Part shown: positions 25,376-36,639 of the stretch, one piece after another
Position numbering within the stretch: the first letter of the stretch is position 1
Layout of the letters: every line of letters starts with the position of its first letter
Source of the DNA: Cenococcum geophilum 1.58
Lineage: Eukaryota; Ascomycota; Dothideomycetes; Gloniales; Gloniaceae
DNA length: 64,000 nt
Assembly (NCBI GenBank): GCA_001692895.1
Contig: KV748302.1
Coordinates: 38,760-102,759 of the forward strand
Direction: 5' to 3'
Made by a program: the position numbers and the translations under genes
Notes under the pieces: generated by a model
Database searches by the model: none
Seen by the model: only the letters and a program-made list of their open reading frames with translations
What the model was told of the DNA's origin: nothing

Positions 25376-25577
25376 TGTTACGGCACTGACGCGCGTAACC
25401 TGGATAGGGCCTAGTCAGGGGGGTTCGCTTACGTCTTGGCTCCATGTATATAGACGTGTCCTTTCCACGACCTTCTTCTTCTCCTCATCTTGATATCCGG
25501 GTCAATAGACTACCAATTGTATAGGCTTGCATACGTTCTACGGCGCTCGTGCCTTGATTAACTGAGTCGCTGTAACA
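25376..25577 (+). repeat. TRIM-like element 5' LTR
   Basis: This 202-bp LTR contains ATCTTGATAT at 25487-25496, the exact complement of the sequence lying two bases past its end (ATATCAAGAT, 25580-25589). Confidence 0.9.
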
Positions 25578-25592
25578 TTATATCAAGATCCC
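25578..25592 (+). promoter_or_regulatory. TRIM-like element candidate self-priming primer-binding site
   Basis: ATATCAAGAT (25580-25589) follows the 5' LTR with a 2-bp gap. It pairs with ATCTTGATAT in the middle of the LTR over 10 bases without mismatch. It does not start with TGG and so does not look like a tRNA 3'-end site. This is the geometry of Tf1-type self-priming. Confidence 0.55.
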
Positions 25593-26020
25593 TCAACCGA
25601 TCGCAGGCTGTTGTATCCCAGGTTAAAGAAGCCCTGTGGCCTAGGGTAGTTAATGGGTAACGGAGCCCTATATACTAGCAGGCAAAGGAAGGAAGGAGAG
25701 CCTAACTCCTATAATAAAGAAGGTAGGAGATGTATACTCTGAGATAAAGCAGGAATTATTATTATTGAAGCCCTACAATCGTAGGAATTATTAAAGTTCT
25801 ATAATCGTAGACACACTTACTGTGGTCCTATGGTGGCTGGGTATAGAATCCCTACACTTATAGGTACCCTCCCTTATATTCTCTTCTTTTTTTCTTTTCT
25901 CTCTACTAAATGGCCGCCTATGCTATGGGGAAGCACGTGCCGAGTAGTAACCTCTTTCCGACCGTACGAACTCGTTGACCGACCGAGCAACGCGTATATC
26001 TGTCAACCGAACGCGTGTGC

Positions 26021-26065
26021 CTACCTACCTACCTACCGATCGATCGACCGATTAACCGACCGTAC
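26021..26065. repeat. CCTA and CGAC microsatellite in the TRIM-like element
   Basis: Short runs of CCTA at 26021-26036 pass into CGAT/CGAC/CCGA repeats. They give rise to the low-complexity open frames on both strands here. Confidence 0.7.
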
Positions 26066-26529
26066 GTCTCTCTATCGGACGCTTGCACCGTACTGCTACC
26101 TAAATAGTCCTTTTTAATGGATACTGAGCTACGTATACTGTGAGGAACGAAATCGGTTGATACTGAGACTAGTGCTATATATTGGCTGCGAAGAATGACC
26201 CCAACTAATACTGAGTTGTACAAGCTGCGAGGAACGAAATCACCAGGACTATCAACGCTGGCATCACTCTGCTATTAACTACCAATCGTGCCGATATGCA
26301 TACAATCCATATACTTGACAACAGTAGCGCCAATACGCCTGCTACTACGACCTGACTACAACTGTGCCGATACGCCTACAGTCTTCTGACCGTACGATCG
26401 TGCCGTTACGCCTGCGATCCACGACTTTCGCTTGCATCGTACTGCTACAAACCAATCAATCGATAGCCCGAGCTCTACGTTTGACCTGCTATCACAAGAC
26501 AACCGATAGACGAGCTCTATGCTCGACCA

Positions 26530-26765
26530 CTATCGACTTCCGCTGCTCTGCCTGCAGCATTACACCCGAACACAGCTGCTCCTACCTGCAGCTAAACCTT
26601 AATTCGACCACTACTGCTCCTGCCTGCAGTACCACAATTGACTTCTGCTGCTACGCCCGCAGCACTACGATCGACCCTCGCTGCTCTGCCTGCAGCATTC
26701 TAACTAACACTCGCTGCTCTGCCTGCAGCATCTCATCGACTACTGCTGCCCCACCTGCAGCAAAT
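26530..26765. repeat. Array of about seven GCTGC...GCAGC hairpin units
   Basis: Variants of CTGCTCTGCCTGCAGCA occur near 26533, 26577, 26617, 26648, 26680, 26713 and 26741, spaced about 30-45 bp apart, just upstream of the polypurine tract. Most units can fold on a GCTGC/GCAGC stem. Translated in one frame they give repeated CSACSI-like peptides, which is more likely a by-product of the repeat than a real protein. Confidence 0.75.
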
Positions 26766-26843
26766 AACTACAACTGTACAAGAGGTAGAAGACAAGCACC
26801 TAAGAATAAAGCTTGAGGGCAAGCTTTTTTAAAGGGGGGGTAA

Positions 26844-27045
26844 TGTTACGGCACTGACGCGCGTAACCTGGATAGGGCCTAGTTAGGGGGGTTCGCTTAC
26901 CTCTTGGCTCCATGTATATAGACGTGTCCTTTCCACGACCTTCTTCTTCTCCTCATCTTGATATCCGGGTCAATAGACTACCAATTGTACAGGCTTGCAT
27001 ACGTTCTACGGCGCTCGTGCCTCGATTGACTGAGTCGCTGTGACA
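26844..27045 (+). repeat. TRIM-like element 3' LTR
   Basis: This is the second 202-bp copy. It starts right after the polypurine tract and ends in TGTGACA, followed by the duplicated CTAGT. Confidence 0.9.
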
Positions 27046-27050
27046 CTAGT

Positions 27051-27410
27051 TAGTTAATTTAGGTATAGTCTAAAATAGAACCGGTAAAGCTATATAATAA
27101 GAAATGGTAACTAAGGTTATATAATATAATCTATATAATCTATAAGATTTATATAATCTGTAATAAAGTAGGTAAAGTATATATACCTTATATATAAAGG
27201 GGATTTCTTAGGAGTATGGTTATATATTTAAAGGACCACAGTCCCTACCTAAATAGTTCTCTCCTTTATAGTAAATCTTAGAATATAATTAGAGTTAATC
27301 TGTTAGGCAACTACTCCACTAGTTATTATTACGTTATTGACTTCTTATTTACCTATATACCTAGCCTATTAATAAGTCCACCGTAGTTCCTACTATAAGG
27401 CTTTATTACA
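27051..27410 (+). repeat. Element C 3' LTR, second part
   Basis: These are the remaining 360 bp of the 421-bp LTR, ending CTTTATTACA with the CA terminus preserved. G sequence resumes after the duplicated GTCGG (27411-27415). Confidence 0.9.
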
Positions 27411-27415
27411 GTCGG

Positions 27416-29400
27416 CTATATTAAACTAGAGAGATGCTACTCTTCGGCCGCCCGTAGTCTCTTAGCTAAATAAGTTAGTAAGTGCCTATTAAATAACCTA
27501 AGAGATAAACCCTAAGCTGGAGAACCTTACTAGTTAACTCCGGAAGCTTAATCTTAGGATAGTTAAATTAGTAGGCGTTATATCATTAATGCTGTTCCTT
27601 AATAGGATTTGCTAAGACCTAATATAGTATATATAGCTCCTAAATAAGGCGTTAGCGCATTAGGAATAAGCAGGTTTATAACTAATAATAAATAATAACA
27701 GACTGCTACTGTCCTATAAGAGGGCGTTATAAGAGCGATATAAGCTAGGCCTAGGAAGGTATAGAGGACTAGGAAACCTTAGTATATACTAGGTATAAGC
27801 TAAGACGTATTATAAAAATAAAGGCCCTTATTATTTTATTAACTAATACCTAGAGCTTTAAGAACTAGTTAGCTGGGGGTTCCTATATATAAATAAGAAT
27901 AACCAAATCTATACTAAAATATGTTAGCGCCTAGGAAATCTACTCCCGTATTTACCGAGCAATAATTAAATTTAGTTCTTTAAAGACTAGCTAAGGTAAA
28001 ATACAAATATTAATCCTAATATAATGGCGATAGGCATCTAACTAAATATATTTTTAGTAGAGCTTATAGAAAGTAATAGCGCTAAAAGTAAAGAAGAGCT
28101 CGGCAAGTCCTAGGAAGATATATACTAAGTAGAGTTAATATATATTAATTTAGTAGGAGTAGTAACCTAGTTATAGCCTATAATACGGTTATATAATCTT
28201 AGGAAGCTAAAAGGAGATATAAGAGTAATAAAACTATCTTTAAAACCGATTAATTTATAACTAGCAATAGTTTAAAATATATAGCTAGAAGGATATATTT
28301 AAATCGCACTATAACTATAGTAGTAGGCTTCCTAATTACTAGTAAATAATAAGGAGACTAACGAAATGGACTATACTAAATAGTTAAGAAGAGAAGTAGA
28401 GTAAGGAACGAAAGTAACCATAACTACTAAAGTACCGCGACTAAAGCCGGTTAGGATAATAGATATACTAAAAGGGAACGTCCTAAGCCTAACCGTAATA
28501 GTGGATAAGATCTTATTAAAAACTATTAAAGTTACTATTAGTAACTGCCTCGTGTATATGCCTAAAGTCGTAAGGTTATTCTTTAAGCCTCTCCTACTAC
28601 CTTTCATAGAGCATTACCGATAAAAGTAAGAGGGTGTTAAGGTATCTATATCGTTGGCGTATTTAATGTTTTATGCTAATTAAGCTGGCCTAATAACTAC
28701 GGAGGTAAACTAGATTAAACAGGAAGCAGGATTTACTTAGTTTTAATAATAATATCTAAAGGTAGAAGCACAGATAGGAGATAAAAGGGTTAAGTGCTTA
28801 ATTAACTCTGGAGCGGAGCTTAACCTTATTAAGGAAAGTGTGGCTTTATAATATAGCTTACCGATATTAAGTCTGCCTCTATAGTTATAAGGTATATATC
28901 TAATGTTTATAAATAGGACTTAGTTTAAGTTTATTAGATTAGTATATATAGCCCCTATAGTTATAGGGGACGTCTTAATATCTATAACTTTTATTACTAT
29001 AGGAGAAATGTTATATAAGGTAATAATTAGTAAGCTATAGTTAATAAGGGCTAAACTAGTAACGTAGCAAACCATAATAGGCTAGGTATTTTATATTATT
29101 TAATTAAAAGATGGCGGAGTTAAAATAAGGTTCTTAATATCCTATAAGGATATAATATTCCTTAAACTAAATAAAGGAATTAATATAGGTAGTAGTTTGG
29201 GAAATATATAACTGGTATAACCGCTAGGATTATATCTAGGGTTACTTATAACCTAGTGTATTAGAATAAGGAAAATACTAAGGACGGAAAGGAGGGAAAT
29301 AAGGTATGACTTTAATAAGGACGTTTGCTATTTTAGATATCCGCTAAATAAGGCTATTAATAGGAAAAAGAGTATAACGCTAGATAGAGAGAGCTTAATA
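27416..29400 (+). pseudogene. gag: Element G gag C-terminal part and aspartic protease
   Basis: G's coding frame resumes here. The protease active site reads CLINSGAELNLIKESVAL at about 28795-28848. The family form is DSGAE; Asp was changed to Asn at 28804-28806 by a TpG-to-TpA event. Between 27430 and 28770 lies a RIP-damaged gag-type region with no zinc knuckle that I can see. The minus-strand open frame at 28371-28607 is a shadow of this frame. The polyprotein runs on into RT without a clear boundary. Confidence 0.75.
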
Positions 29401-30718
29401 GCAAAGCGTTAAAGGAAGTTCTAAAGAAGTACTTAGGAGGAAGGCAGAAGCTAGTGTTTAAAGTAAAGGCTAGATCCCTTATATATTAAACGTTAAAGAT
29501 AACAGATCTATTTATAATATAAATAAAAGACTATAAGAGTAAAGCCCGATAAAACACTATAAGTGTAGCAACTGCGTATCAATAAAAGGTAGAGAAAGTC
29601 TGCCTAGTTAATTTGTTAGTACTAGATAGAACGGTTATAGGAGGTATAATAAAGTAGTAAGAAGTAGCCTTACGTTGGTAAAAGGCGTTTATTTAAGGGT
29701 TGCCCCTTAGTCCATATAATTATTTCCTTAAGCCGCGGTATACTAAGCTAGCCTATAGTATATGGCTAAAGCTAGAATAATTAGAGCGTATAATTATAGG
29801 GGACCTTTAGCTAAGAGAATGAGAAATCTTTAAGGCTATATTATTTAATTAAGAAGAGGCTCTAGTATAGGAGTTCTCTAAAATGGGCTGTATTAGTAGA
29901 GATATAACTCTACTATTAAAGATTAAGACTGTACTGTATAAAGTATAGTAAGTGCCGAACTTTCCTATACTAAGGGCCCTATAAGGGGAAGTGATAAATA
30001 TATTACGAGAATAACTAGCTTAAGGGACTCTAGAATATTGCGAAAGCCTATATAGAAATTTATAGTTTCTTATAAGTAAAAAGGAATATAAAAAGTACCG
30101 GCTAATTAATGCGGCGATAAATATTAACTAAGTAACTATTAGGGACGTAAATCTGCTACTATATGCTAATAAGTTTTCTAAGGAGTTTGCGGGGTGTAAA
30201 GTTATATCTTTAGTAGACTTCTTCTCTAGATATAACTAATTGGAGCTAAATATAGAAAGCAGGAACCTAATGGCCTTTATAATATCTCTGGGACTTCTAT
30301 AATAAACAATGGTACCTATAAAAGAAATAAATTCGGTAGCCTAGTTTATAAGGACAATTACTAAAATTTTAGAGTAATATATCCTATACTATGCCTTACC
30401 GTTACTAAATAATATTACAGTAAAAGGACTATAGATAATATATAATGGAGAAGAAAGCCTTTTAGGCGTGCATAGATATATCTTAGAATATATTATATGG
30501 CTAAACGGAGTACTTATAGATTTGGAATGAGCTAGGTATATAATCTTAGGCGTAAAGTCTTATTTCTATAAGGACAAGATTATAGTAGTTAGTTACTACT
30601 ATAATAAAAAGGGACGATATCCGGAAGAGTTAAAAGTTATAAAGATTATTTACTAGAGAGACTGTAAAGACGTTATATCTACCTAAGTATTCCTAGGAGT
30701 TGTTATATATTACTAAAT
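29401..30718 (+). pseudogene. pol: Element G reverse transcriptase (before the MITE)
   Basis: From about 29940 the frame reads ALREVINILREQLAQGTLEY, FLVSKKEYKKYRLINAA, ISLVDFFSRYNQLELN and ITKILEQYILYYALPLLNNI (some stops are read as their Gln/Trp precursors). This is a Ty3/Gypsy RT of the type whose catalytic box is FLDDI rather than YxDD. Both Asp codons are now AAT (30408-30413). The sequence is cut by a MITE at 30720 and resumes at 30848. Confidence 0.8.
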
Positions 30719-30719
30719 A

Positions 30720-30847
30720 ACGTAGGTAACAGGGTTTTGACGGTGTGATGAGTTTTAATGGTTTTAAGGTTTCCTATACAAACTTTGTCTGTGTCCTCTC
30801 GCTTAAAGTTTTGATGTTCAAAACCGTCAAAACCCTGTCACCCACGT
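30720..30847. mobile_element. MITE (128 bp) with long terminal inverted repeats, TA target
   Basis: It begins ACGTAGGTAACAGGG and ends CCCTGTCACCCACGT, flanked by TA on both sides, within G's pol. The inverted repeats extend through GTTTTGACGG. A second copy lies at 59667-59812. TA duplication and short length suggest a Tc1/mariner-type non-autonomous element. Relative to the other copy, 18 bp are deleted near the right end and RIP-type changes are present in the left repeat. Confidence 0.88.
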
Positions 30848-32840
30848 TATAGGTAAAAGACTTTATAATAAAGGCAGAGCCAATCTTCTAGCTGCTATAA
30901 GTAAATGTTCCGTTTGTATAGGGTATAGAGCAGATAGCCGCTATAGAGACTCTAAAGTATATAATTACTACTATATCCACATTAGTTTAACTGGATTATA
31001 GTAAGGGGGCTAGGCTAATTATTCTTGCTGTTAACGGATATAAGAATAGATAGGGATGCGGTCTTATATAACTGGATATATAAGGTTATCGCTACCTATA
31101 TTAATATAAGAGCGGTATTTAATCTTAAGTAAAGTAGAAGTATAATTTAGGAAAGCTTAAATATTGGGCATTACTATATGTATTAAAGAAGTGTCGAGTA
31201 TACCTATATGGCGTCTGCTTTACGGTTAAGATAGATATAAATACCTTAGTTGCGTAGCTAAATTATACTGCTACTAATCTATTAGGAGCCTTAATAATAT
31301 AATAGCTAGTATAGATCTAGCTATGGGACTTTAATATTAGATATATACTAGGGAAGAAGAATAGCCTAGCTGACGGACTGTTATAATAACTACTAGATAG
31401 AGAACGGCCTAATAAACCAACTAAGGATATTAAAGAATTTATTAACTATAAGCTGAGTGCCTTAAAATATATGGCTAGCCTAGTTAAAATAGAGGTGGGT
31501 CTACTACTAGAGGACTTATATTTAGAGGAATTTTAGAAGATTGCGAAGTAGTTAGTAACCTTATAACGTCTAAAAGGAATAAATACTAAAGAATTTAAAA
31601 GATTTAAATAGTATACGCTAAAGTTCCTAGTACGTAATTAACAGCTCTTCCGCTAATAGTTAAAAAATATACTAATGCGGAGAGTAATTAATAACAAGAA
31701 TACTTAGCGAGAGATTATTAAGAGCCTTTATAATTAGAGTGGATATTATAGACAAAAAGGGACGTATTAGAGAGTCTTAAATTAATATTAGTGGCTAGGA
31801 CTATAGGATCAGATATTATAGCATATTAAGTCATACCTATAATACTAGGGGCGGTAGTTAGGATAGAAAGAAGAAGTAATATACCCTATATAGGAGTCTA
31901 CTTTATAGTAACAAGTAATAGTAAATATTATATTTATGCTAATAACTTATCTTAGATTCCGATACCTAGCTACTACTTAAGAATATATATCTAGATGGGT
32001 AGAAGCGCAAGCCCTTTAGAAAAAGGATATAAAAAGTGTAGCGAAGTTTTTCTATAAAAATGTCATCTGTAGATAGGGAGTATTTAGACAGCTTTCTATA
32101 AATAGTAATGGAGAAAATGCTAATATAACCGCTGCGCTTACGGAGCTTTACAATATTAAAAGGGTTATAGTTTCCGTATATTACCTATAGGGGTAAGGCT
32201 TAATAGAGTGAGGTTATAAGCCTATAGTAGACGCTTTAGCAAAGATAGATAGCTTATAGCTGGATAATCTTTATACCGTTTTATGGCCAGATAGGACTAC
32301 TATTAAGCGGCCTACAGAAATAATACTAGTAAAAGTTATATACGGATATAAGTATATCCTTCCTATTAAACTCTATATACCTACTTAGTAAACGCTGCCT
32401 TAGTAAATAGTCCGGACTACTATAAAGCTACTAGCACTTTATATGAAGTAGTTTAACTAAAGAGATATAAATATAAAAGAGGCTATTACGCGTATAAGAC
32501 GGCTAAGGGTAGCAAATAAGGAGTACTTTAATAATACCTACCATATTCGCTAGGACGGATTTAAGGTTAGAGATATAGTTATACTTTATAACACACAGCT
32601 TAAGTAAAACTATTCTAGCAGTTATAAATTGGATTTAAAGTAGCTGGGCCCGTTTTATGTTTGTAAGAGTTACCCTTATAAAGAATAGTATTTAATTAAG
32701 GATCTTAATAGTATGCTATTTTGCAATTAAATTTTAGGGAATAGATTAAAGAGGTTTTACTAATAATAGATATCTAAAGTCCGCTAGGAGGATAGGCCTA
32801 ATTAGTTAGGCGGAACTATACTATAAGAAATAATAGTAGA
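30848..32840 (+). pseudogene. pol: Element G RNase H and integrase
   Basis: RNase H lies near 31010-31400 (ILAVNGYKNRQGCGLIQ, with DG read as NG; YILGKKNSLADGL). The integrase core spans about 31910-32240: FRYLATTQEYISRWVEAQAL, FRQLSINSNGENANI, VYYLQGQGLIERGYKPI. A DE residue pair is preserved at the Glu of GQGLIERG. A C-terminal GPY/F-like module reads YKLDLKQLGPFYVCKSY and NRLKRFY (32620-32770). No chromodomain was found, which separates G from C and E. Confidence 0.8.
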
Positions 32841-32975
32841 GCTAAAACCTAAAGAAGATGTTATATAAGATCTACTAGTATTACAACGCCGCGTAGTTTA
32901 AGAAGTGCGTATTCTAGAAAGATCGTTTAATAGAACTAAGTATGAAATATTTAACTAGGGGATAGTTAAGTTCTA

Positions 32976-32990
32976 AGGTGGGGGAGGGGA
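32976..32990 (+). promoter_or_regulatory. Internal polypurine tract between pol and the extra ORF
   Basis: AAGGTGGGGGAGGGGA is followed directly by TGTAGATAAC, the layout of a polypurine tract and an LTR start. The true 3' tract of G is 3.3 kb further on (36298-36310). It may be a relic of an older LTR boundary or a second priming site. Confidence 0.4.
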
Positions 32991-33186
32991 TGTAGATAAC
33001 AGCTGTGTAATCTATTTATTTACTGTATTTCCTAAAGCTTTTTCTATTACGCGTTCTTATTTGCTTTTTTAGTTAGGAATCTAATATATATTAACAGTAA
33101 GGTAAGGGTAGAAGAATGTTTACGTATAACTATCTAGTATTATTTACTGCAAAGATATTAGCTTTACTTACCGCCTTTACTAAGCT

Positions 33187-36100
33187 AATAGCGATTTTCT
33201 ATACCAGGTATAGAAAATTATAATTAGTTTATTTAATAATTAGAGCCGGCAGAACTCCATACCGCCGCCTAAATTTAGTAGACTATTTAGATTAGGAAAC
33301 CCTATTTAAAACTTTACCTTTTTACCTTTAATAAACCTTAGAGACAGTTATAATTATCTAAAGTATAAACTAAGTAAAATTAAGAATAACGGTATGCTTA
33401 TTATATCTTTATTTAGTAGACTATTAGTCCTCTATAAAGGAGCTAAGTGATAAATTAGTAACGTCCTAACGGAAGTTAGATGCTTTGCGGTTAATCGGCG
33501 TTAAGTAGTGCTTATTTAAATCTATAATGAGATTTTGCTCTTATAAGAAAACTACGCAGATACGGCTAGTGTAGTAGTTAATTTTATTAACTAAGATAAC
33601 GGACTATAAGCATCTTTAAGAAAGGACGCATTTATGTTAATCTTTAAGAATATTTCTAACATTAGTAAAATAGCTAAAGATTAGAGAAACTAATATAATA
33701 AAGCTAGAGAAACTATCTAAAAGACCTAGGGATAAGATATTTTTAACGGACCGCTAAAATACGTAGTCTTCTATAACTTCCTCTCCGCCGTCTAAAAGCT
33801 TAGAATATACCTACTTTCTAAAGTTATAGTAAGAGTTAATAAACCTCTAATTAATAGGCTCGAATATTTAGGACGTAGTATTAAAAATATTACTTAACTA
33901 TAGCTAATTAATTTTGCGCTTGTATCTAAGATATTAGAAAGGGTAATATTAGGCTAGGTGGTAAAAAAGTATAGTTTAGAAAGACACTTAACTGGCTTCC
34001 TTATTCCAAATAAGGACTTACTACTAAAAAGTAGGAGACTGACTACTATAGGACTAGAGGCTATTAATATCGGAATTAAATAAGTAGGAGAGAGCTTAGC
34101 TCTCGCACTGCGAATATATTTATAGCATGCTTCTAACATAATAAATCCCTTAGCCTTTTAGCCATTAACACCTATTTAAGGAGGAGGCGTTAGTATTATA
34201 CTAAGTCCGTCCTAATAAGGATCGCCTATATTAGTTAACTTACCTTTATTATCTATAAATAAGAGCATTCTTGTAGCTAGAACGCCTGTTAGCTCGCCCC
34301 TATAGCTGCTAGTATCTTTATTAAAAAGGAATCTAAAAAGGGGGCTAACGATTGCTTACCCGGAAGTAGGAGGGCTAGGAGTAAAATTAATGTTTAATAA
34401 GAATATTATTAAGCTAGGAGATAATATGAAGTATATTAAGGAGGCTATAGATACTATAGCGGTACTCCGTGCAAAATGAGGATGTAACTATAAGGATAAT
34501 ATATTAGCGCATTTTAAGACGTCCCTAAATTAAACTACTAAAATTAAACTAATAGAGGTTATAAATCTCTTACGCAGCTAGTATAGAGCGGCTGGTTCTA
34601 ATCTAGAGATATATAAGGTTTGCTAGATACATACTTAAGTAATAGGAGGACGTATGGGTTTGGCAATAAAAGGTCTAAACTATACCGCACTATGTTATAA
34701 ACTCCGTTTAATATATTACGCTTATAACTACCTTAGCACTATAAAGACCAATTCTACTATATACTCTTAGTTTAGAAAGGCTTATAGACCTTTAGTTCCG
34801 TTTAATTCCTTAAGACCATATAAGTTTATTTATAACTTAGCGCTAAGGTTTTCCTATAATAGAGAGGCTTTACTTAATCGGATAATGTTACTAAAAGACT
34901 AAGAAATATGGCAGTGAGAAGGATCCGTAATTTTAAACATATTTAGATAGTAGTAGGATTCTAGTATCTTAATAATAATTAACAAGGAAATGCGTATATA
35001 CCACTATTATTAGCGTCTAATTAATAGGCGGCTAAACTATAGCTAGTTAAGAACGATGGTTTATGGTCTCTACTAATAGCTAATAAGACAGAATCCTTAG
35101 TATTATTGTCTCTATTACGCTCTTAGGCCTAATAGTTAGTGGCGACTTATTTCCTACCCTTATTATATAAAATTCGCGGTTAAAGGAGACTCTATAGCAT
35201 TCTGCTATATTAACATTAATATTCCCTTACTCCTTAAAAGTAGACGCAGTGCCAATATAACCTAAGGAAGCATTTCTCTGGATAATAAGACTAAGGATAA
35301 CTGCATAATTGTTTTACCCAGTATATATTATTACTTAGAATTATAGTGGGCAGATTTTAATGCGCGAGGATTAACTAAGGGCGACGGATTTATGTATAAA
35401 ATCTTGGACTATAACTAGACTATTAAGGATGTAGAGAAATATGTAACTAACTAGGTAGCTTAGCTATATAAGAAAGGAGATATGCGTATAACTATACCTT
35501 ACCTTCCTTATAGAGTAAAAGGACCTTTAACTAGGACCTAGCGAACAATACTGCTATAGTTCGTTAGTATTTAAGATAATTATAATAACCTTAAGATTAT
35601 AGAAGGAGGAACCTAGGCAGAGCTGGTAGATGTATACTAAGACTTAAAAGCGCCGCTTTATACGCTATCTAGACATACCAATCTTTACAGCGTAATCTTA
35701 TACCGCTTCCCTACTATAGTTAAACTTATAGCTACTAGCGCCTTATCTAACGCTCTTCTAGGTAGACGGTAATAGGATTCTCTGGCGGTAATTTAAGATT
35801 ATAACCTTTTTCTTAATAGGAATAGAAACAAAGTTAGGAAATAGATATATTCCTACCATTTTAGGGCTGTTAAAAACTATAAGGATGCGTTTTAGCTTAT
35901 ACGTACAACTAAAATAGAGCGCTTTAATAGCCGCTTATACTTCTACTACATTAATAATAAAATCGATTCTTTAACTGTTGCAGTAAACCTAAGTAGAGTG
36001 CCCCTAGTTATTATAGAAGGATAAAGCTATATAGAGCTGCCTAAAGAATTATAGGATAGAACTAAGTAAATAGAAGGACGCGAAAGAGCTATATTATCTA

Positions 36101-36315
36101 AGAGCCGCTAGTCTAATACCTCTTATACTACCCCGCTAGGCGGAGGTAAGTGGTCTTATTTAACCAGAACGGAGTCTCCTCGCTTACTATCTTGGGTTTA
36201 TGGTAAGGGTAAGGAATATATACGGTCACCTACTACGCCTTTATTTTAAAGATAGGGAGTTTTAGAGTTTTAGAAGTCGTTAGGGGACAACAACTTAGGT
36301 AGGGGAGGTATATAG
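33187..36315 (+). pseudogene. Element G extra ORF (about 1040 codons), 2OG/Fe(II) dioxygenase-like
   Basis: One phase is readable from about 33187 to the LTR edge with only RIP-type stops and no frameshift, so a single long protein lay between pol and the 3' LTR. The start is unresolved. The C-terminal half shows a double-stranded beta-helix oxygenase order: GDSIAFCYINININIP-like block at 35185-35223, where Tyr (35206) and Asn (35212) sit at the places of an HxD pair; DNCIIVLPSIYYYLE; then MRITIPYLPYR (35482-35514), with Tyr at the expected distal His; then TRT-stop-RT (35530-35547), supplying the 2OG-binding Arg. CAC/CAT-to-TAT and GAC-to-AAC are RIP changes. TET/JBP-type enzymes are one candidate family. 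The family call is from memory of motif order, not a search. Confidence 0.6.
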
Positions 36316-36339
36316 TAGGGTAAATTGGCCCACTAGATT
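36298..36339 (+). repeat. Element G polypurine tract and 3' LTR, first part
   Basis: TAGGTAGGGGAGGTA ends at 36310 and the LTR starts TATAGTAGGGTAAATTGG (36311), matching TGTAATAGGGTAAATTAG of the 5' LTR. The last 12 bp (GCCCACTAGATT, 36328-36339) are duplicated at 41790-41801 by the LINE insertion. The extra ORF's stop codon falls inside the first bases of the LTR. Confidence 0.85.
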
Positions 36340-36639
36340 ATTTATTTATTTATTTTTATATCCATTGTATTGTACTACGTACAATACTACGCATGTAGCC
36401 TCTGGGCTATGGCGCTATAGTTCTATATATATAAATCCTTTCTAGGCAGCTTAATATGTACTAGTAACTATATCCTAGTAGTTTATAAACCTCTAAACTA
36501 GAGGTTTACCGCTCCCTAGTAAAATACTAGGTTACGACAACTATTAGGTAGTATTAAAACAGTAGGAAAACGGTAAAAGAAACGGTAAACGAATCCTAAC
36601 GCCTGCCCCTGTACATTTTATAGTTTATTTCTATCCTTT

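Follow-up and report, generated by a model that had tools for sequence, protein, structure and literature searches.

A degraded gene for a predicted oxygenase lies between pol and the 3′ long terminal repeat of a Ty3/Gypsy-type element in Cenococcum geophilum

The window analyzed here, a 64,000-nucleotide stretch of the Cenococcum geophilum 1.58 genome (contig KV748302.1), holds a Ty3/Gypsy-type retrotransposon in which one reading phase continues for about 3.1 kb beyond pol, in the position of env. What does this third open reading frame (ORF3) encode, and does it belong to the element? The original prediction was a dioxygenase-like gene of about 1040 codons, possibly of the DNA- or RNA-modifying TET/JBP type. 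We describe below a gene degraded by repeat-induced point mutation (RIP), whose product is predicted to be an oxygenase of another branch.

The genome searched comprised 177.2 Mb in 162 contigs, with the window lying within contig C127. The frame at 33187-36315 (+ strand) runs over 1,043 codons, and scattered stops interrupt an otherwise open reading. Its DNA matched at least 39 other genomic places with 83-89% identity, mostly at full length; this number is a lower bound, as 40 of 1,017 first-look candidates were scored. Alignment of the frame with ten other copies showed that codons 1-1042 are kept gapless, codon for codon, in eight of them, while copies C29 and C95 contain one frame break each. 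Across the nine indel-free copies (window included), a stop was found in at least one copy at 87 of the 1,042 codon columns, which would suit an open frame arisen by chance in AT-rich DNA under RIP. All nine copies stop together at 19 of these columns, compared with 50-85 columns in the other five frames. Where stops and sense codons occur in one column, 228 of the 245 cells with sense codons hold TGG, CAA, CGA, CAG or CGG, the RIP-type precursors of stops, which bears out the earlier description of an open frame broken by RIP. Among the 895 variable columns of the nine copies, 440 were A/G and 426 were C/T. Where C was invariant in all nine, the next base was A in 1 of 275 columns, as expected if RIP had already consumed CpA.

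A profile built from the nine copies retrieved one intact protein, P0001 (950 amino acids, JGI, 17 member sequences). Its JGI contig is up to 11,780 bases long. All 950 residues aligned without a gap to window codons 73-1022, with 558 identities (59%). Since this alignment is confined to these codons, the gene proper can be placed at about 33403-36255; codons 1-72 keep this phase and match nothing in P0001. The predicted size of about 1040 codons thus applies to the frame, and the gene itself is shorter. Of the 392 window residues that differ from P0001, 362 are reachable by C>T or G>A changes only, 7 by the reverse direction only and 23 by neither. When the differing residues were shuffled 200 times as a control, the share in the RIP direction averaged 18% and never exceeded 23%. 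The eight other copies behaved likewise against P0001, with 282-387 differences in the RIP direction, 3-7 in reverse and 17-21 others. From the gapless alignment and the direction of the differences it follows that ORF3, at the level of sequence comparison, is a P0001-like gene in RIP-degraded form. The same alignment speaks decisively against a chance frame, whose probability we consider negligible.

33403-36255, + strand: ORF3, 950 codons plus stop, predicted PhyH/DUF1479-type 2-oxoglutarate/Fe(II) (2OG/Fe(II)) oxygenase with RIP stops (from the P0001 alignment, its relatives and the predicted fold)

Neither the window frame nor the nine RIP-mutated copies, used as queries against Pfam and PDB, revealed a meaningful family, because RIP masks the family until an intact relative serves as query. 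The search with P0001 yielded 74 proteins at E ≤ 0.1, P0001 counted in. Nine of these 74 rows carry an organism name, eight of them that of a fungus, which we take to be an ascomycete, and one that of the moss Sphagnum balticum (P0024), possibly a fungal contaminant or a transfer. Records of intact relatives include Sclerotinia borealis, Coccidioides, Xylona, Rhinocladiella and Coleophoma. No relative was found in the viral contigs or in the bacterial and archaeal genome contigs searched. A PDB sequence search with P0001 and with the relatives' alignment A3 gave nothing meaningful, and a database search with A3 returned, among the matches listed, only P0001 and one fragment, P0075.

Residue conservation was counted over 38 of the 74 relatives that were aligned. 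The candidate active-site positions (P0001 numbering) and a Cys/His set map to the window as follows:

35206-35214, + strand: HxD iron ligands H602 and D604, read as Y and N in the window; H in 37/38 and D in 36/38 relatives
35509-35511, + strand: distal iron-binding histidine H703, Y in the window; 37/38
35539-35544, + strand: arginine pair R713 and R714, candidate 2-oxoglutarate-binding residues, a stop and R in the window; 37/38 and 36/38
34483-34632, + strand: CxC...CxxH set (C361, C363, C407 and H410), C, Y, C and H in the window; 38/38

The motifs CYIN, YLPYR and TRT-stop-RT, which had been singled out as catalytic sites in the window, align to RHID, HLPHG and TGTRRT of P0001. A further candidate, DNCIIVLPS, fared differently, since its histidine (H643 of P0001) is kept in only 11 of the 38 relatives. 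The arginines follow the distal histidine by 10 and 11 residues, a spacing that we take to fit 2OG/Fe(II) oxygenases. Each of the nine genomic copies examined carries mutations at D604 and H703. As an alternative, one could consider the protein to be a binding scaffold that has the oxygenase fold but no catalysis. Against this, 35 of 38 diverse relatives keep H602, D604, H703 and R714 together (all but P0033, P0063 and P0074), which makes a dead scaffold highly improbable and agrees with the ancestral 2OG/Fe(II) oxygenase first proposed for this locus. The CxC...CxxH set is probably a zinc site within a basic module, the median isoelectric point (pI) of which is 9.9 over the 38 relatives.

Regarding the fold, the AlphaFold2 model reached a mean pLDDT of 77, with most of the enzyme domain above 90 and low confidence at residues 1-4, 211-356 and 865-950. 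We read the product as three parts: an N-terminal helical part, the basic Cys/His module, and a C-terminal enzyme domain forming a double-stranded beta-helix (jelly-roll). The original prediction would have had no case without a match to an oxygenase fold; 152 solved chains, jelly-roll oxygenase structures among them, were matched at Foldseek E ≤ 0.001. The first DUF1479 chain by Foldseek E-value, 7twe, stands at rank 4. Ordered by VIA-align Z, the leading chains were 4rgk (YbiU, 20.9), 7twe (DUF1479, 20.8), 2csg (19.5) and 6akz (GIG2, DUF1479, 19.4), after which Z falls to about 16 and below with GriE, EctD, proline hydroxylase and others. Among viral structure models, the best four matches were phytanoyl-CoA dioxygenases of giant viruses and phages. 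On the basis of the model, the ORF3 product is confidently predicted to adopt the oxygenase jelly-roll and lies nearest, by Z, to DUF1479/PhyH-type structures; the fold assigned to this product, in the env position, is that of an enzyme. The likeness to these proteins (YbiU 4rgk and GIG2 of Candida albicans 6akz) is structural, at 12-13% identity, with no DUF1479 sequence match in the 38 relatives, and the structure alignments omit the N-terminal part and, in most rows, the Cys/His module.

The sequence families point to the same branch. PhyH (PF05721) was matched by 15 of the 38 relatives at E ≤ 1 (best 4e-08). Tet_JBP, which we take to be also named 2OG-FeII_Oxy_6, the AlkB-type family (PF13532) and DUF1479 were absent from the 20 Pfam families that these relatives matched at E ≤ 1, as were all other families of nucleic-acid oxygenases, in a scan whose HMMER filters discard most weak matches. 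The proposal of a TET/JBP-type 5-methylcytosine oxygenase carried by a retrotransposon draws on the common superfamily and metal-binding pattern, and on the TET genes of diverse fungal DNA transposons (excerpts of PMC12730594). This part of the original prediction was not sustained: none of the 38 relatives matched Tet_JBP at E ≤ 1 as against the 15 that matched PhyH, the best structural neighbors by Z are of DUF1479/PhyH type, and we regard a TET/JBP enzyme as improbable. Neither TET nor AlkB chains appeared among the best 50 rows by Foldseek or the best 50 by Z, which does not exclude kinship. Another oxygenase branch than TET/JBP could also oxidize 5-methylcytosine.

We then come to the second question, whether this gene belongs to the element. 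Nineteen of the 39 other copies were retrieved with their flanks (ten, then nine more). Homology to the window starts at 27410 in the copies that extend that far and stops at 36339-36348 in ten copies. The features mapped are:

27410-36348, + strand: remainder of a Ty3/Gypsy-type element, lacking its 5′ part and 5′ long terminal repeat (LTR), with only about the first 38 bp of its 3′ LTR (boundaries common to other copies)
36298-36310, + strand: polypurine tract, adjoining the 3′ LTR in the window and in six other copies inspected
36311-36348, + strand: truncated 3′ LTR start, T(G/A)TAGTGGTG or close variants in paired-LTR copies, homology ending at 36339-36348

A 3′ LTR had been predicted downstream of ORF3; its start is indeed present, yet the window copy is cut at 27410 on its 5′ side, keeps only these 38 bp or so, and has no LTR pair. 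Self-comparison of the ten first retrieved copies revealed LTR pairs in seven, with 90-95% identity and a length of about 265 bp in six; in C22, the LTR match covers only 129 bp and the 5′ LTR is seemingly incomplete. No pair was found within the retrieved range of C4, C29 and C95. The LTRs start with TGTAGTGGTG and end with CACCACTACA, allowing for close variants of the RIP type. In each of the six copies where both LTRs are complete, a 4-bp target duplication was read by eye (C41 TTAC, C16 ATAG, C3 ATAG, C1 GTAT, C72 GTAG and C19 CTAC), and the full element measures about 10.6-10.8 kb (C41, C16, C19). LTR pairs flanked by such duplications indicate that LTR, pol, ORF3 and LTR transposed as one unit. 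The window copy is a truncated member of this Ty3/Gypsy-type LTR element, which is present in high copy number.

In each of the 19 retrieved copies ORF3 adjoins the end of pol, although C72 has a small insertion where the two meet. This agrees with the env-like position predicted for a third ORF. A reciprocal scan used the last 1.7 kb of pol as query (301 candidates, 40 scored). ORF3 lies directly downstream by coordinates in 27 of the 40 scored pol copies, window included, and inspection of the 13 others revealed it in a short stretch at the expected place in seven, i.e. 34 of 40 in total. Had ORF3 been private to one copy, other copies would be expected to have their LTR abutting pol near 32991, rather than carrying the gene as these 34 do. 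In C21, an ORF3 match lies about 10 kb further downstream and may belong to the same copy, interrupted, and in C3 at least the spacer up to the ORF3 start is present. ORF3 is therefore the third gene of the element, located between pol and the 3′ LTR, and moves with it; that the oxygenase gene belongs to the element is almost certain.

As an alternative, a host PhyH-type gene captured between pol and the LTR could be a passenger acting on a small molecule or a protein, with no specific counter-defense. Amino-acid hydroxylases, EctD, and antibiotic and alkaloid tailoring enzymes are among the solved structures with this fold and would suit such an origin, and a sequence at the end of pol resembles an older LTR junction, with the gene added downstream:

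32977-32995, + strand: purine-rich run and adjoining TGTAG where pol ends, with RIP variants in eight other copies inspected

By eye, this run resembles the sequence at 36298-36315, where the element has its actual polypurine tract and LTR start. It may be a relic of the 3′ terminus of an ordinary Gypsy element that later acquired ORF3, or alternatively a central polypurine tract. The passenger explanation is countered by the retention of ORF3 in all 19 retrieved copies and by a family that is large, diverse and catalytically conserved. Moreover, all scored genomic matches are RIP-broken, with at least 33 stops in each of the 48 matches to P0001 (of 334 candidates) and at least 16 in each of the 54 matches to the more distant P0003 (of 232 candidates), and no intact host homologue was found among them. 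The genome contains eight stop-free PhyH matches, none at the places matched by ORF3, P0001 or P0003. We consider a passenger possible but unlikely. A conserved enzyme kept in a selfish element suggests that it serves that element, and the enzyme is probably useful to it.

Fungi silence repeats through methylation and RIP, which mutates C to T, and the PhyH/DUF1479 branch is known mostly from small-molecule chemistry. In the function that we favor, the ORF3 protein would be made from the element RNA, its basic Cys/His module would bind nucleic acid or chromatin, as the basic charge suggests, and the enzyme domain would oxidize a methyl or related mark, the removal of which would leave the element less silenced or less mutated. 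A nucleic-acid or chromatin mark as substrate, argued by analogy, has in our opinion slightly less than an even chance. Taken together, the conserved enzyme, the basic module and the oxygenases of other mobile elements make interference with silencing or RIP the likeliest role. The best overall explanation, an element-encoded oxygenase of the PhyH/DUF1479 branch altering a mark for the benefit of the element, stands at about an even chance. We consider possible but unlikely the broader proposal that a widespread fungal Ty3/Gypsy lineage encodes an oxygenase, of a branch with no known action on nucleic acids, that removes or rewrites cytosine or other marks and blunts both RIP and methylation.

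Several observations weigh against this explanation. First, we only infer the substrate of the oxygenase, and a small molecule or a protein is possible. The top Foldseek E-values belong to small-molecule enzymes (EvdO1, proline hydroxylase H11 and SnoN). Secondly, basic charge is found only in the Cys/His module, the median pI being 6.5 for the enzyme domain and 7.8 for the N-terminal part (33 counted). Thirdly, P0001 scores 17.1 bits against the PhyH curated cut-off of 22; among ten other relatives scanned singly, P0071 exceeds this cut-off (34.2 bits), three fall below it (17.7-18.8 bits), and six have no PhyH match at E ≤ 0.01. The intact relatives may not themselves sit in retrotransposons, and four of the 40 pol copies (C62, C12, C69 and C52) showed no ORF3 at the place inspected. 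Finally, the element is heavily RIP-mutated despite ORF3, as the stops in each of the 48 scored copies attest. This last point decides neither for nor against a counter-defense role, since the present copies are those that the host caught.

Oxygenases of mobile elements, including those of plant Gypsy elements, are already known, and the kind itself is not new. As described in excerpts of PMC12730594, TET/JBP genes are carried by fungal DNA transposons and Helitrons and have been suggested to counter methylation or C-to-T hypermutation; the excerpts of this 2025 study report that no TET enzymes were found in retrotransposons. These systems have in common with ORF3 the 2OG/Fe(II) superfamily and a fungal mobile carrier, but they are DNA transposons with TET/JBP enzymes, whereas the carrier here is an LTR element and the enzyme is assigned to the PhyH/DUF1479 branch. 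In the Phalaenopsis orchid, ORF2 of a Ty3/Gypsy element encodes an ALKBH5-like 2-oxoglutarate-dependent dioxygenase that demethylated N6-methyladenosine in RNA in vitro, according to excerpts of PMC9289625. Both elements bear an extra oxygenase ORF with an HxD...H pattern. The orchid elements, as far as these excerpts go, differ by their plant host, their length of 25 kb and their AlkB family (PF13532) enzyme nested among plant AlkBH5 homologues; the present element is fungal, about 10.6-10.8 kb long, carries another oxygenase branch, and the scored matches include no intact host gene close to it. An extra gene in this location is described in a further paper, whose main text nowhere uses the word oxygenase. 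The Boty-like elements of Botrytis cinerea also bear an extra gene, brtn, which is antisense according to a cited title. Among the best matches of an open-license literature search, none described an oxygenase in an LTR retrotransposon of a fungus, and none is mentioned in the excerpts of PMC3248453, PMC10799480 and PMC4469406.

If the favored function is true, ORF3 would be a retrotransposon counterpart to the TET-carrying DNA transposons, the oxygenase strategy may have more than one origin in mobile elements, and a branch of small-molecule enzymes may include enzymes of nucleic acids or chromatin. As intact relatives are present in public data, the idea is directly testable in vitro.

The pol region of the element was searched for domains with stops read as X. 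In the window, RT_RNaseH was found just below its curated cut-off (22.2 bits versus 24.8). The C22 copy displays the order RVT_1, RT_RNaseH and rve; RT_RNaseH passes the curated cut-off there, while RVT_1 and rve fall short of theirs in this RIP-mutated sequence. The pol features are:

30090-30420, + strand: reverse transcriptase region, approximate (RVT_1, E 0.021, L023, transferred from the C22 copy)
30733-30847, + strand: extra segment of about 115 bp in pol between reverse transcriptase and RNase H, present in the window copy and in none of the 16 other retrieved copies that cover this point
31021-31260, + strand: RNase H domain of pol (RT_RNaseH, PF17917, E 1.6e-4 in the window and 7.4e-6 in the C22 copy)
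31915-32190, + strand: integrase core, approximate (rve, PF00665, E 0.0012, L023, transferred from the C22 copy)

This segment shifts the pol frame in the window copy, and the alignments of the other copies (9 + 7) skip from 30719-30732 to 30848.

Between pol and ORF3, the spacer segment at 33138-33275, which contains a palindrome at 33181-33231, was also observed outside the element near two of ten copies, inverted for C41 and direct for C1. It is possibly a small embedded repeat.

Upstream of the element, positions 25376-27048 are occupied by a unit of about 1.67 kb with 205-bp terminal direct repeats that are 97% identical. Its GC content is near 50%, with a weak RIP signature over 26001-27000, and a 150-amino-acid ORF within it (26364-26816) has no Pfam match. 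The unit is inserted in a longer repeat, which is uninterrupted near other copies, and it has many genomic matches; apart from the unit itself, the best of near-full length reaches 95%. It looks like a younger non-autonomous LTR element.

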